DNA of 64,000 bases from Candidatus Scalindua japonica (GTDB lineage: Bacteria > Planctomycetota > Brocadiia > Brocadiales > Scalinduaceae). Both the position numbers and the translations under genes were made by a program. Below, piece by piece: positions 3 to 5,168 of this stretch. Position 1 is the stretch's first letter; each line of letters begins with the position of its first letter. The DNA lies in the NCBI RefSeq assembly GCF_002443295.1, contig NZ_BAOS01000003.1:124001-188000 (forward strand). Reading direction: 5' to 3'. The notes beneath the pieces are model-generated. The model worked only from the letters and a program-made list of their open reading frames with translations. It did no database searches and had not been told where the DNA came from.

Positions 3-554
3 GAGGGGCTGGCGTGGAGCTATCGTGCTACATTTGGCGGTTCTACTGTTGCGATGGATTGCCCCCCTTATGAGATGTACTACAGCGGTTCGCAGATTTG
101 GCAACAAACTCAAGATCTTGCCGATATCTCAGGAATGTATAAGGCTTATGGGATAGAGATTGAAGAGGACACGACCACAAGTAGATGGGACCATGTAGCG
201 GTTGAATTGGAATTTCTGCATTTTTTGACTTATAAAATTGCATATGCAATAGAAAACCACAGCGAAAAGGAACAGGAGTCCTGTATTTCAGGTAAAAAGA
301 AATTTTTGTATGCCCACATCGGCAGGTGGATAAAGGCATTTTCAACGTCAGTTATTAAGAAAACACCTGAAGAGTTCTATCGCCATGCTTCGGCATTGGC
401 GAGCCTTTTTATTCATATAGAAATGCTCAAGTTGTCTGTTGACGCGGAAGAGATAGATGAATATATGGGTAACGAACCTGATTATCTTCAGAGGCTTGAA
501 GGTAAAAGCGCTATGGCTTGTGATTCATGCATGGATGAGGAAAAATATGACTGA
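3..554 (+). CDS. TorD/NarJ-family molybdoenzyme chaperone (5' end outside window)
   Basis: Cytoplasmic chaperone of the TorD/DmsD/NarJ type, which binds an apo-molybdoenzyme and its Tat signal until cofactor is inserted. The frame is open to the left edge, so the true start lies upstream; the ATG at 54 is internal, because codons 3-53 (EGLAWSYRATFGGSTVA) continue the family pattern. Visible signatures are a CPPYEMYY segment near the visible start and the helix with DHVAVELEFLHFL, matching the conserved DH-x-ALELEFM region of TorD proteins. The gene overlaps the next by 8 bp and nxrA lies about 1 kb downstream, so NxrA is the natural client. Family assignment is from motif recognition; the specific client is inferred from position. 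Confidence 0.82.
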   Translation, partial: EGLAWSYRATFGGSTVAMDCPPYEMYYSGSQIWQQTQDLADISGMYKAYGIEIEEDTTTSRWDHVAVELEFLHFLTYKIAYAIENHSEKEQESCISGKKKFLYAHIGRWIKAFSTSVIKKTPEEFYRHASALASLFIHIEMLKLSVDAEEIDEYMGNEPDYLQRLEGKSAMACDSCMDEEKYD

Positions 555-1530
555 ACTACAGGAAGAACAAGTTGAAACTCTTGAAATTGAATATGATCAT
601 CAGTTGGTTGATGATATTGTGTGTAAGGGATTGTTGCGGCAGGAAACATCTGGAGACTCCGCTTTATACAATGAGTATCATAAGAAAAGAGATGCTATTT
701 ATGAAATGGAGGAAGAGAAAAGGCCAAGGCGTTTCAGGGAACTTGATGTGGAGTTCTTTAATCGATTAGGTTATGGAGCCTTCCTGAGAGATGCATTCGA
801 TGAGTATCCTGACATAGAGGAAATGGTTAAGGAGGTTCATGTCAGGAGAGCTACGACACGGAAGAACGAGGGTTCTAATCTTGTAGATGAGGGTACTAAA
901 GTCATCATCAGGCTATATCCCGAGCTTTTTATTGAGGGTCGCGATGAAATACGTAAAGTTATCAGGCATGAACTTATGCATGTTTCTGACATGATAAATA
1001 GTGCCTTCGAATATAACGTACATGAGGAATTTGCGACCTCTCCTATGGAAGAGCGAATAATCACTGATAGATATAGGCTTTTCTGGGATATTTCTATTGA
1101 TGGCCGTTTAACTAAAAAAGGACTCGAGACTACCGCATCCAAAGAGGAGAGAAAGAAAGAATTTGATTCATTCTTTAGTAAAATCCCTGAAGAGACAAGG
1201 ACTGTAATATTTGATAGAATATGGAATGCGGATGAAACTTTTACACATAACAGAATGGTTGAATTATCTAAAGACACAAACAAAGTCCTTGCATTAGCTG
1301 CAGGGAGCCGTTCTGCTGAAGAACTGGTAGAAGAATCAAAGGCCCTTGGTCCTGTTCCTGGAACGACCTGTCCGCTTTGTGGTTTCCCTTCATTTGATTG
1401 GATAGAGGAAGTTGCCCAAGATGAGGACATTGCCAAAATAATTAATGAAGAGTTTCCGGATTGGAAGCCACAGGATGGAGTCTGCGAAAGATGTGCGGAA
1501 TATTATAAGATTAAAGCAGGTAAGTGGTAG
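547..1530 (+). CDS. Unrecognised HExxH / zinc-ribbon protein of the nxr operon
   Basis: I do not recognise this 327-residue protein. The start is the ATG at 547, which overlaps the chaperone stop by 8 bp and has GAGG about seven bases upstream; the same frame is open further upstream to an ATG at 457, but that would lie entirely inside the chaperone gene. It carries HELMHVSD (H141, E142, H145, D148), the HExxH signature of zinc metallopeptidases, and two C-terminal Cys pairs, CPLC (275-278) and CERC (313-316), which look like a zinc ribbon. It is rich in acidic and charged residues, with no signal peptide or membrane segment, so it is probably cytoplasmic. It sits between a molybdoenzyme chaperone and nxrA. 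A role in proteolytic or metal-dependent maturation of nitrite oxidoreductase is plausible inference only. Confidence 0.75.
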   Translation: MTELQEEQVETLEIEYDHQLVDDIVCKGLLRQETSGDSALYNEYHKKRDAIYEMEEEKRPRRFRELDVEFFNRLGYGAFLRDAFDEYPDIEEMVKEVHVRRATTRKNEGSNLVDEGTKVIIRLYPELFIEGRDEIRKVIRHELMHVSDMINSAFEYNVHEEFATSPMEERIITDRYRLFWDISIDGRLTKKGLETTASKEERKKEFDSFFSKIPEETRTVIFDRIWNADETFTHNRMVELSKDTNKVLALAAGSRSAEELVEESKALGPVPGTTCPLCGFPSFDWIEEVAQDEDIAKIINEEFPDWKPQDGVCERCAEYYKIKAGKW

Positions 1531-1578: not shown

Positions 1579-4500
1579 ATGAAGCTAACGCGAAGGACGT
1601 TTATGAAGGTTGCGGGAGGTGTTACTGCGGCTGTCTCAATACCTATGAGAAATGCTCTGGCTTTTAATTCTTTAAAGCCGGCAGTAGAGGTAGATAATCC
1701 TCTCGATTCTTATCCCGACAGAAACTGGGAAGACGTGTACAGAAATCAGTACAAATATGACCGTTCATTTCCATTTGTTTGCTCACCAAATGATACTCAT
1801 CAATGTCGTGTAAGAGCATTTGTGAGAAACAGCGTCGTAATAAGGGTGGAGCAGGATTATGAGCATCAGGATTACGGTGATATTGAAGGAAGAAGACCAC
1901 AGAGGTCTTGGAACCCGAGGATGTGTCTGAAGGGTTTTACTTTTTTCAGAAGAGTATATGGACCACATAGGTTAAGGTTCCCACTTCTTAGAAAAGGCTG
2001 GAAACAGTGGGCGGATGACGGTTTTCCTGAGTTGGACTGGGATGCCAGAGAGAAATATAAATTTACATCCAGAGGTACTGATGAGCAGTTAAAGATGTCT
2101 TGGGATGACATAATTGATTATGTGGCCAGAGGTATGATCCATATTGCAAGAGAGTACAGTGGAGAAGAAGGGAAAAAGAAGCTGCTGGAAAGAGATAAGT
2201 ATGCTCCGGAGACCCTAACACATTGGAATGGTGCTGGTACGAGATGTTTCAAAAATCGTGGGGGTATGGGTCTTCTTGGTGTTATTGGAAAATACATGGG
2301 GATGTACCGATTCTCTAACACGCTTGCACTTCTTGATGCTAATATAAGAGGTGTCGGACCTGATAAAGCAATGGGCGGCAGAAGATTTTCAAATTACACA
2401 TGGCATGGTGATCAGGCTCCAGGACATCCATATGTTCATGGATTGCAGGCATCTGACGTTGATTTTGCAGATCTCAGATATTCAAAATTGATTATACAGG
2501 TTGGAAAAAACCTTATAGAGAACAAGATGCCTGAGGCACACTGGCTGACTGAGATCATTGAGAGGGGTGGTAAAATGGTCGTAATTACGCCCGAGTACAG
2601 CCCTTCAGCGACAAAGGCCGATTACTGGATCCCTTGTCGAACCGGTATATCTGATACAACAATTTTCCTTACTATGACAAAGATCATAATGGATAACAAA
2701 TGGTATGACGCGGATTTTGTCAAGAAATTTACGGATTTCCCACTCTTGGTGAGGACAGATACGCTTAAGAGATTGAAAGCAGAGGAAATTTTTGCAGACT
2801 ACCATCCACCTGATCTTGACTATAGTATGAATGTGCAGGGCCTGAAGAAGAAACAACGGAAACAGCTGGGCGATTTTGTTGTGTTTGACGAGAAAACCAA
2901 AGAATTTAAGGCTATCACCAGGGAAGATGTTGGTAAGAAAATGGTAGCTAAAGGTATAGATCCAGCTCTTGAAGGAACTTTCAAGGTTAAGGTTATAGAT
3001 GAAGATAATGAGTTTAAGGGAGGCTATGACTCTCATGAGCCAAGATGGAAGGAAGTCGAAGTGATGACTCTTTTTGATCTTTACAAGATTCATCTCAGGG
3101 ATTTCGATGTAAAGACTACTGCCGATATAACAGGCTCTCCTGCTCATCTTATTGAAAGGCTTGCAAAGGATTGTGCAACAATTAAACCTGCGGCAATTCA
3201 TTATGGTGAAGGAATTAACCATTATTTCCATGCAACACTCCATAACAGAGCAACATACCTGCCTTTAATGCTGACAGGTAACATTGGTTATCATGGTTCA
3301 GGTTCTCACACCTGGGCAGGTAATTATAAAGCCGGTAACTTCCAGGGATCAAAGTGGTCAGGTCCTGGATTCAAGGGTATCATTGCAGAGGATCCATTCA
3401 GGATGAATCTGGATCCGCATGCGGATGGTAAGGATATTCACGCTCATAGTTATGCAATGGATGAAGAGGTTGCATACTGGAACCATGGAGATACTCCTCT
3501 TATTATCAATACTCCAAAGTTTGGTAGAAAGAGTTTTACCGGAGAGACTCACTATAATACACCGACTAAGGTTCTATGGTTTAATAATGTTAACTTGCTT
3601 AATAATGCAAAATGGGTCTATGAGATGTTTAAAAATGTTAATCCCAGGATTGATCTTATCATCTCAAGTGACATAATGATGACATCATCCATACAATATG
3701 CCGATGTTGGGTTTCCGGTAAATTCATGGATGGAATTTGAACATTATGAGGTTACATGTTCCTGTTCTAATCCATTTCTTCAGGTATGGAAAGGTGGGAT
3801 TAGACCATTGCATGATTCTAAGGATGACGTTATGGTCCCTGCACTTGTTGCCAAGAGAATGGGTGAAATACTTGGCGACGGAAGATTTGCTGACTACTGG
3901 AAATTTGCACTTGAAGAGAGACCAGAGGTTTACATGCAGAGACTCTTTGACGGTAGTGTTCCTACAAGAGGGTATAACGTAAACGATATGATCGCCGGTA
4001 AGTATGGTGTACCGGGTGGTGCAATGCTGAACTTTGGTACCTATCCAAGGACGCCAATGTATGAACAGGTCGTTTATGACCGTCCGTTCCATACAGATGA
4101 TGGAAGGCTTCATTCATATTGTGATATTCCCGAAGCGATTGAATACGGTGAAAACTTTGTATGTCACAGGGAAGCGGTAGAGGCAACACCTTATATGCCA
4201 AATGTAATAGTCAGTACAAATCCGTATATTCGACCTGAAGATTATGGTATTCCAAAAAACCATATGGGTGCTGACGAACGACATGTAAGAAACATCAAAA
4301 TGCCATGGAGTGAAGTTAAGAAAACGAAGAACCCATTGTGGGAAAAAGGGTACAGGTTCTATTGTGTAACTCCGAAAACCAGACACAGGGTCCATTCACA
4401 ATGGAGTACAGTGGACTGGAACCTTATCTGGAATAATAACTTCGGTGATCCATATAGAATGGACAAACGAAGCCCAGGCGCTGGAGAACATCAGTTGCAC

Positions 4501-5070
4501 ATAAATCCAGCCGCTGCAAAAGATCTGGCTATCAATGATGGTGACTATATTTACGTTGATGCAAATCCTGTTGATAGACCATACAGGGGTTGGAAACCGA
4601 ATGATCCATTCTATAAAGTAGCAAGGCTTATGGTGAGAGCAAAGTATAATCCGGCGTATCCATATCATACTACGATGATGAAACATTCAACTAATGTCGC
4701 CACAGAGAAGAGTGTTAAAGCGCATGAAACGAGGAAAGATGGCATGGCAATGTCTAAAGATGGATATCTTTCAAATTTCAGATATGGTTCTCAGCAGTCA
4801 ATAACCAGATCGTGGTTAATGCCGATGCATCAGACAGATACTCTCTTCCACAAGAAGAAAGTTTTCATGGGATTCATGCATGGTGGTGAAGCTGATAATC
4901 ATGTTATTAATACGACTCCTAAAGAAACGCTTGTCAGGATTACAAAGGCTGAGGATGGAGGATTAAATGCGAAAGGAGTTTGGGAACCGGCAAGAACAGG
5001 TTTTACTCCTGCAAATGAAAGTAAATTCATGAAACTGTATCTTAAAGGTGGAACCACAACGATCGAATAA
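1579..5070 (+). CDS. nxrA: Nitrite oxidoreductase catalytic subunit NxrA (molybdopterin, Tat-exported)
   Basis: Large catalytic subunit (1163 aa) of the DMSO-reductase family, type II (NarG/NxrA). In anammox bacteria it oxidises nitrite to nitrate in the anammoxosome. The N-terminus has a twin-arginine signal (KLTRRTFMKVAGG, then an Ala-rich stretch ending near residue 29). Likely ligands of the proximal [4Fe-4S] cluster are C68, D72, C76 and C116, an Asp-containing set unlike the His-Cys3 of NarG. WHGD at 275-278 lies where the Mo-coordinating Asp (D278) is expected. The start has GGAGGA eight bases upstream. It follows the TorD-like and HExxH genes and ends at a strong terminator, so no NxrB or NxrC follows here; they may lie left of the window. 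Nitrate reductase NarG is the alternative, but length, Tat signal and the C-x3-D pattern favour NxrA. Confidence 0.9.
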   Translation: MKLTRRTFMKVAGGVTAAVSIPMRNALAFNSLKPAVEVDNPLDSYPDRNWEDVYRNQYKYDRSFPFVCSPNDTHQCRVRAFVRNSVVIRVEQDYEHQDYGDIEGRRPQRSWNPRMCLKGFTFFRRVYGPHRLRFPLLRKGWKQWADDGFPELDWDAREKYKFTSRGTDEQLKMSWDDIIDYVARGMIHIAREYSGEEGKKKLLERDKYAPETLTHWNGAGTRCFKNRGGMGLLGVIGKYMGMYRFSNTLALLDANIRGVGPDKAMGGRRFSNYTWHGDQAPGHPYVHGLQASDVDFADLRYSKLIIQVGKNLIENKMPEAHWLTEIIERGGKMVVITPEYSPSATKADYWIPCRTGISDTTIFLTMTKIIMDNKWYDADFVKKFTDFPLLVRTDTLKRLKAEEIFADYHPPDLDYSMNVQGLKKKQRKQLGDFVVFDEKTKEFKAITREDVGKKMVAKGIDPALEGTFKVKVIDEDNEFKGGYDSHEPRWKEVEVMTLFDLYKIHLRDFDVKTTADITGSPAHLIERLAKDCATIKPAAIHYGEGINHYFHATLHNRATYLPLMLTGNIGYHGSGSHTWAGNYKAGNFQGSKWSGPGFKGIIAEDPFRMNLDPHADGKDIHAHSYAMDEEVAYWNHGDTPLIINTPKFGRKSFTGETHYNTPTKVLWFNNVNLLNNAKWVYEMFKNVNPRIDLIISSDIMMTSSIQYADVGFPVNSWMEFEHYEVTCSCSNPFLQVWKGGIRPLHDSKDDVMVPALVAKRMGEILGDGRFADYWKFALEERPEVYMQRLFDGSVPTRGYNVNDMIAGKYGVPGGAMLNFGTYPRTPMYEQVVYDRPFHTDDGRLHSYCDIPEAIEYGENFVCHREAVEATPYMPNVIVSTNPYIRPEDYGIPKNHMGADERHVRNIKMPWSEVKKTKNPLWEKGYRFYCVTPKTRHRVHSQWSTVDWNLIWNNNFGDPYRMDKRSPGAGEHQLHINPAAAKDLAINDGDYIYVDANPVDRPYRGWKPNDPFYKVARLMVRAKYNPAYPYHTTMMKHSTNVATEKSVKAHETRKDGMAMSKDGYLSNFRYGSQQSITRSWLMPMHQTDTLFHKKKVFMGFMHGGEADNHVINTTPKETLVRITKAEDGGLNAKGVWEPARTGFTPANESKFMKLYLKGGTTTIE

Positions 5071-5133: not shown

Positions 5134-5168
5134 AAAAGCCCCTGACTTTATTGTCAGGGGCTTTTTTA
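5134..5168 (+). terminator. Rho-independent terminator after nxrA
   Basis: Perfect 9-bp stem GCCCCTGAC (5138-5146) / GTCAGGGGC (5153-5161) with a 6-base loop, preceded by four A and followed by six T. It lies 67 bases after the nxrA stop and closes the operon. Confidence 0.93.

Follow-up and report, generated by a model that had tools for sequence, protein, structure and literature searches.

Introduction

The redox enzyme maturation proteins of the NarJ/TorD/DmsD group (PF02613) are cytoplasmic and are encoded in the operons of the molybdoenzymes that they serve. The [NiFe]-hydrogenase maturation endopeptidases (HyaD/HybD/HycI), proteases dedicated to one metalloenzyme, cut a C-terminal tail and have no HExxH site. 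An HExxH helix with a downstream zinc ribbon is found in the SprT-like/SPRTN proteins (PF10263), and the biology of SPRTN is that of DNA-protein crosslinks. Atp23 (Peptidase M76), which takes part in the assembly of the mitochondrial ATP synthase, carries a motif of the HELxHxxD type, and we know of no zinc ribbon in it. Atp23 is both a protease and an assembly factor, and its proteolytically inactive form still supports assembly (PMC8877559). A review of molybdoenzyme maturation from 2023 mentions Lon as the sole protease, acting on unprotected apo-TorA (PMC10609526).

Nearly all biological nitrate is made by nitrite oxidoreductase (NXR) (PMC8387239), and we found no account in the literature of NXR assembly beyond the TorD-type chaperone. 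The Nitrospina genome paper mentions "one putative zinc finger" protein common to the nxr regions of Kuenenia, Nitrospira and Nitrospina (PMC3578206), and work on Nitrospirales refers to "several proteins of unknown function" in a cluster with NxrC and TorD (PMC12342949). Here, we analyze a protein with an HExxH motif and a C-terminal zinc ribbon (the HExxH protein) encoded in an nxr operon, which may already have been noticed as the zinc finger protein of the Nitrospina paper. The window, i.e., the entire stretch of 64,000 nucleotides under analysis, comprises contig C3:124001-188000 of a Planctomycetota genome, and at this locus it is closest, among public genomes, to those of Candidatus Scalindua and to one labelled Brocadiaceae S225.

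The HExxH gene resides between torD and nxrA

The HExxH gene (547-1530, forward strand) encodes 327 amino acids, probably an NXR assembly factor as judged from the open reading frame, the homologue family, its linkage and conservation, and the pLDDT of the structural model. HELMH at residues 141-145 (967-981, forward strand) and the two C-terminal CxxC pairs (275/278 and 313/316) are present in this reading frame as originally claimed; the latter delimit the zinc ribbon of residues 275-316 (CPLC ... CERC; 1369-1494, forward strand), and the remaining cysteine is at position 26. The chance expectation of an HExxH in a protein of the same composition is about 0.02.

The ATG at 547 lies within the 3' end of torD, whose stop codon occupies 552-554. 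This 8-bp overlap agrees with the proposed translational coupling, and GAGGAA immediately 5' of the start codon could serve as a ribosome site. The upstream gene, of which the 3' part occupies 1-554 of the window (forward strand), was confirmed as that of a TorD/NarJ-type chaperone by a match to PF02613 above the cut-off (E 4e-14); the match to TIGR03482 (type II DMSO reductase chaperone) was below the cut-off. The complete gene (L005:17781-18554, 257 residues) starts at contig position C3:123781, 219 bases upstream of the window. On the other side, the expected 48 nucleotides (bases 1531-1578) separate the HExxH gene from nxrA (1579-5070, forward strand), encoding the catalytic molybdopterin subunit with the N-terminal Tat signal LTRRTFMK. 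This NxrA is a near relative of the Kuenenia nitrite oxidoreductase subunit A (NXR-A, PDB 7b04 chain B; phmmer E 0), and its match to TIGR03479 was below the cut-off. By direct reading of the sequence, the operon ends with an intrinsic-terminator-like hairpin, GCCCCTGAC-TTTATT-GTCAGGGGC-TTTTTT (5138-5167, forward strand), which looks strong. With the upstream DNA included, the gene order is nxrC, nxrB, a gene for a secreted zinc-ribbon protein, torD, the HExxH gene and nxrA.

The secreted zinc-ribbon protein of 204 residues is encoded just upstream of the window in the nxrB-torD interval (L005:17049-17663; contig C3:123049-123663). Its ribbon is homologous to the one in the HExxH protein, with 38% identity over 55 residues. 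Within the Scalindua family, further nxr operons encode this protein (L008-L011, L110-L112); none was seen in the Kuenenia-type family. We rejected its identification with NXR-T, which is a monohaem cytochrome c (PMC8387239).

Linkage to nxr genes persists through rearrangement

The homologue survey covered 199 and then 392 genomes, all from Planctomycetota and many of them fragmented. The nxr-type HExxH family occurs in 55 of the 392 genomes, and six more carry only a shorter paralogue. NxrA, NxrB, NxrC or TorD adjoin the HExxH gene almost everywhere: with gene starts estimated, the distance to torD, nxrA or nxrC is at most about 400 bp in 46 of 51 loci, and the exceptions are three contig ends (L056, L098, L099), a second copy (L064) and a locus in which the gene is 2.4 kb off (L107). 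By this survey, the torD-HExxH-nxrA arrangement is far beyond chance. The original prediction, which would have been contradicted by homologues lying mainly outside molybdoenzyme operons, clearly survives here, and the fixed link to nxrA extends over two anammox families and many other Planctomycetota, mostly with the HExxH gene directly beside torD or nxrA.

Four gene orders were observed among the HExxH loci, namely nxrC-B-(ribbon)-torD-HExxH-A in anammox bacteria, nxrC-HExxH-A-B-torD, HExxH-nxrA-B-torD-C, and nxrC-A-B-torD-HExxH. Because the linkage outlasts such rearrangement, it provides strong comparative evidence that the HExxH protein and NXR share a function.

Several loci depart from the common pattern. 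In L053:5027-6789, torD and the HExxH gene are still paired, yet the search of this genome (G020, an assembly 91% complete) yielded no NxrA homologue at E <= 1e-20. In anammox genomes of the Kuenenia type, a second nxrA is frequent for which we found no complete HExxH gene alongside (L071, L090, L091, L092), and L071 shows a ribbon fragment at a contig end near this second nxrA. Some nxrA copies are interrupted, by a frameshift in L044:10332-13912 and by four in-frame TGA codons in the second copy of G258 (G258:C1:763008-766118), which might indicate decay or sequencing error.

The HExxH family co-occurs with one NxrA clade

We divided the NxrA sequences by their identity to the NxrA of the window into clades A (>=58%), B (53-57%) and C (40-43%), with which a tree of 46 NxrA sequences agrees. 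Of the 392 Planctomycetota genomes, 54 have a clade-A NxrA, and 51 of these carry the HExxH family; it is present in none of the 12 clade-B genomes and in none of the 18 clade-C genomes, which have only the more distant NxrA homologues. In all three clade-A genomes without the family nxrA is incomplete, the copies of G037 and G267 being cut by a contig end; the third genome is G236. Four genomes have the HExxH family without an NxrA above the threshold (E <= 1e-20), two of which (G023, G320) hold NxrA fragments. The Fisher p of 2e-55 for this co-distribution is inflated by relatedness and not readable as a probability; more telling appears a single genus, in which four genomes (G115, G146, G211, G289) have both the HExxH family and clade-A NxrA and one (G233) has neither. 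The link between the HExxH family and nxr is real and specific. The inspected clade-B and clade-C loci contain nxrA and mostly also nxrB, nxrC and torD, and no replacement factor stood out by eye in three clade-B operons (L076, L080, L081).

Predicted structure of the HExxH protein

None of the Pfam and NCBIfam models claims the HExxH protein, and sequence searches found nothing in the PDB, no homologue in plasmid records and, with a single HExxH homologue as the query, no match in viral contigs. AlphaFold2 confidently predicted a zincin-like core and a zinc ribbon for the protein of the window with a pLDDT of 89.5. The model consists of a helical N-terminal part, a short β-sheet (strands 96-101, 109-113 and 118-123), the motif helix (132-150) with HELMH near its middle, a second long helix bearing R175 and W180, further helices, and the C-terminal ribbon. 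The core and the location of the motif on the expected helix suggest a resemblance to zincins, but Foldseek searches against the PDB and viral models returned nothing significant (E > 0.001 throughout); some of the weak matches were to zinc peptidases, to SPRTN and to SprT-like proteins. The model of a homologue with the broken motif VELTR (pLDDT 94.5) shows this fold as well, which is no independent test since the alignment is largely shared.

Membership in the SprT-like family (PF10263) was rejected at 15.8 bits against a cut-off of 25.6 bits (E 0.013), with only three of 32 members matching at E <= 1. We likewise rejected Peptidase M76/Atp23 (PF09768), for which the best score, 20.3 against a cut-off of 25.2 bits, came from a paralogue and 0 of 59 genomes exceeded the cut-off. 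The HExxH protein does not match PF02613, the all-helical TorD fold, and its predicted fold has a β-sheet and a zinc ribbon.

The HExxH histidines were lost repeatedly

In a MAFFT alignment of 48 homologues, W180 is kept in all sequences and E142, D148 and R175 in 47 each. Both histidines of HExxH are intact in 35 homologues and broken in 13, so that the zinc ribbon, with its four cysteines in 42, is retained more often than the histidine pair. For the ribbon, a minimum of three losses is required, and five of the six homologues affected also have a broken HExxH. No broken motif occurs in the two families that include Scalindua and Kuenenia, with 18 loci intact out of 18; we defined these "anammox families" by similarity to Scalindua and Kuenenia sequences and not by hydrazine synthase. 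Outside them, 17 of 30 homologues have an intact motif and 13 lack one or both histidines (AELVR, NEWRH, HELLL, PELEH, RDLAY, REIQR, REFLH twice, HEFLR, VELTR, RELAH, RELLF, REFLY), corresponding to at least seven losses on the tree of the HExxH family. A non-conserved HExxH had been named as an outcome that would refute the original prediction, and this outcome applies in part, the anammox loci showing the opposite. Homologues that have lost histidines retain the glutamate, formally the catalytic base, which points to a structural role of this residue. No clear third metal ligand was found in the alignment, as D185 is not conserved throughout the members with an intact HExxH.

We compared the termini of NxrA, as the only subunit, for a cleavable tail. 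No N- or C-terminal segment of NxrA is tied to the presence of the HExxH protein, and the NxrA clades that have the protein resemble those that lack it at both termini. Only eight scattered positions discriminate clade A from clade B, none of them interpretable. Because the motif was lost at least seven times, in 13 of the 30 non-anammox homologues, the sequences argue against proteolysis as the function common to the HExxH family. By analogy with mitochondrial Atp23, any proteolysis would best be read as lineage-specific.

Proposed role in NXR assembly and alternatives

It is fairly probable, in our assessment, that the HExxH protein is a dedicated cytoplasmic biogenesis factor of the NXR clade of NarG-type enzymes, acting with TorD as a chaperone or scaffold before Tat export. 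This reading is based on the linkage in 46 of 51 loci, the specificity for clade A, the decay of the catalytic site with the linkage kept, and the persistence of E142, D148, R175 and W180 while the histidines go. We found no signal peptide or other export signal in the HExxH protein, and NxrA carries a Tat signal, which would make the cytoplasm their meeting place. There, the HExxH protein and the TorD-type chaperone most likely act jointly on immature NxrA (or NxrAB), to which they would bind before the Tat export of the folded, cofactor-loaded NXR complex. Scaffolding or chaperoning would be the simplest common function, since many lineages do without the histidines and yet retain the gene at its position, and cleavage would be dispensable in general. 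In the anammox families with their always intact HExxH, the protein may additionally cleave or bind metal, which would not be a universal part of its role. The suggested NXR maturation factor has thereby gained from the nxr linkage in many Planctomycetota, while the idea of a protease is weakened by the broken motifs outside the anammox families.

The Kuenenia counterpart by gene order is kustd1701; in a Kuenenia-type locus (L049), the order is A, HExxH, torD, B, C, and the NxrA of 1148 residues has a start identical to PDB 7b04 chain B. The gene kustd1701 is annotated as "Unknown protein" and transcribed with the cluster, and its product was undetected in the proteome, as was that of the likewise transcribed kustd1702 in the TorD position (PMC6423088). 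The components reported for purified NXR and tubules are A, B, C and T, and do not include kustd1701 (PMC8387239). Being transcribed yet undetected, and missing from the reported components, kustd1701 would fit a low-abundance helper. Against the assembly-factor reading, the perfect HExxH in 18 of 18 anammox-family loci suggests that the site matters there, the enzymes of clades B and C, which belong to this general type as well, manage without the HExxH protein, and G020 has torD and the HExxH gene with no NxrA homologue found at E <= 1e-20.

The intact anammox motif, its place on the expected helix of the modeled zincin-like core and the position of the gene beside nxrA in the operon would all suit an active maturation protease, which, like the [NiFe]-hydrogenase endopeptidases, would make one specific cut in NxrA, NxrB or NxrC when cofactor insertion ends and thereby free the enzyme for Tat export. 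We nevertheless consider such a protease unlikely, given that most of the 13 homologues lacking one or both histidines are still in the operon, that no terminal segment of NxrA tracks the protein, and that a clear third metal ligand is missing, D185 being absent from some members with an intact HExxH. It also seems improbable that the anammox protein is an active site-specific metallo-endopeptidase gating NxrA export, the first for a NarG-type molybdoenzyme, which elsewhere repeatedly decayed into a pseudoprotease chaperone.

A protease could instead serve quality control by degrading NxrA without cofactors, as the counterpart of the protection by TorD, which shields apo-TorA from Lon (PMC10609526); the coupled torD-HExxH pair would then balance the two activities. 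The loss of HExxH in many lineages makes this explanation very unlikely, as does the strict association with a single clade of enzymes, which a degrading protease would not usually show. The better retention of the ribbon than of the histidines and the homologous ribbon on the secreted protein of Scalindua-family nxr operons might also point to a protein without any assembly role that is encoded in the operon by happenstance and works through its zinc ribbon, be it as a metal carrier, as a regulator of NXR or as a structural partner of minor importance. This alternative is unlikely, because the protein is absent from the reported components of purified NXR and tubules (PMC8387239), was undetected in the proteome (PMC6423088), has no signal peptide, matches no profile of DNA-binding families, and has lost the ribbon at least three times.

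Comparison with known maturation systems

Like the NarJ/TorD-type proteins, one of which it adjoins, the HExxH gene is linked to one cognate molybdoenzyme. Unlike them, its product is unrelated to that group in sequence and predicted fold, and it accompanies the TorD-type protein instead of replacing it. An active protease would resemble HyaD/HybD/HycI in its dedication to a single metalloenzyme, but NxrA has no comparable tail and the HExxH protein no profile match to these endopeptidases. The HExxH helix and downstream ribbon, together with weak profile and fold similarity, recall SprT-like/SPRTN proteins, although the scores are below the cut-off, the Foldseek matches are insignificant, and SPRTN belongs to a different biology. 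Weak profile matches to Atp23 recur in the HExxH family and its paralogue, all of them below the Pfam cut-off, and the enzyme and the compartment differ; by analogy, Atp23 would be the nearest functional parallel. If the proposed assembly role is true, NXR would have a second assembly factor, different in its kind of fold and confined to a single clade of the enzyme, and laboratory hosts would need this accessory gene to produce active NXR of the anammox type. The repeated loss of catalytic residues with the place in the operon kept would provide a natural series from a protease fold to a chaperone.

An unlinked HExxH paralogue

A paralogue from the same order (L006, L065, L066, L114) shares the core RHELMHVxDQ...F...RYKYLWNVYIDSRL with the HExxH protein, but it is without the zinc ribbon and resides away from nxr genes. 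By inspection, the paralogue in L065 and L066 adjoins a peptidyl-prolyl-isomerase-like gene and an mfd-like gene. In the genome of the window, the paralogue and its adjoining genes are near-identical at the ends of two contigs (L006:8995-9642 on C27 and L007:1-444 on C28), probably an assembly overlap. A similar zinc ribbon also occurs in short stand-alone proteins of two further Planctomycetota, encoded away from the nxr genes (L073:9945-10157 and L072:9696-9959).
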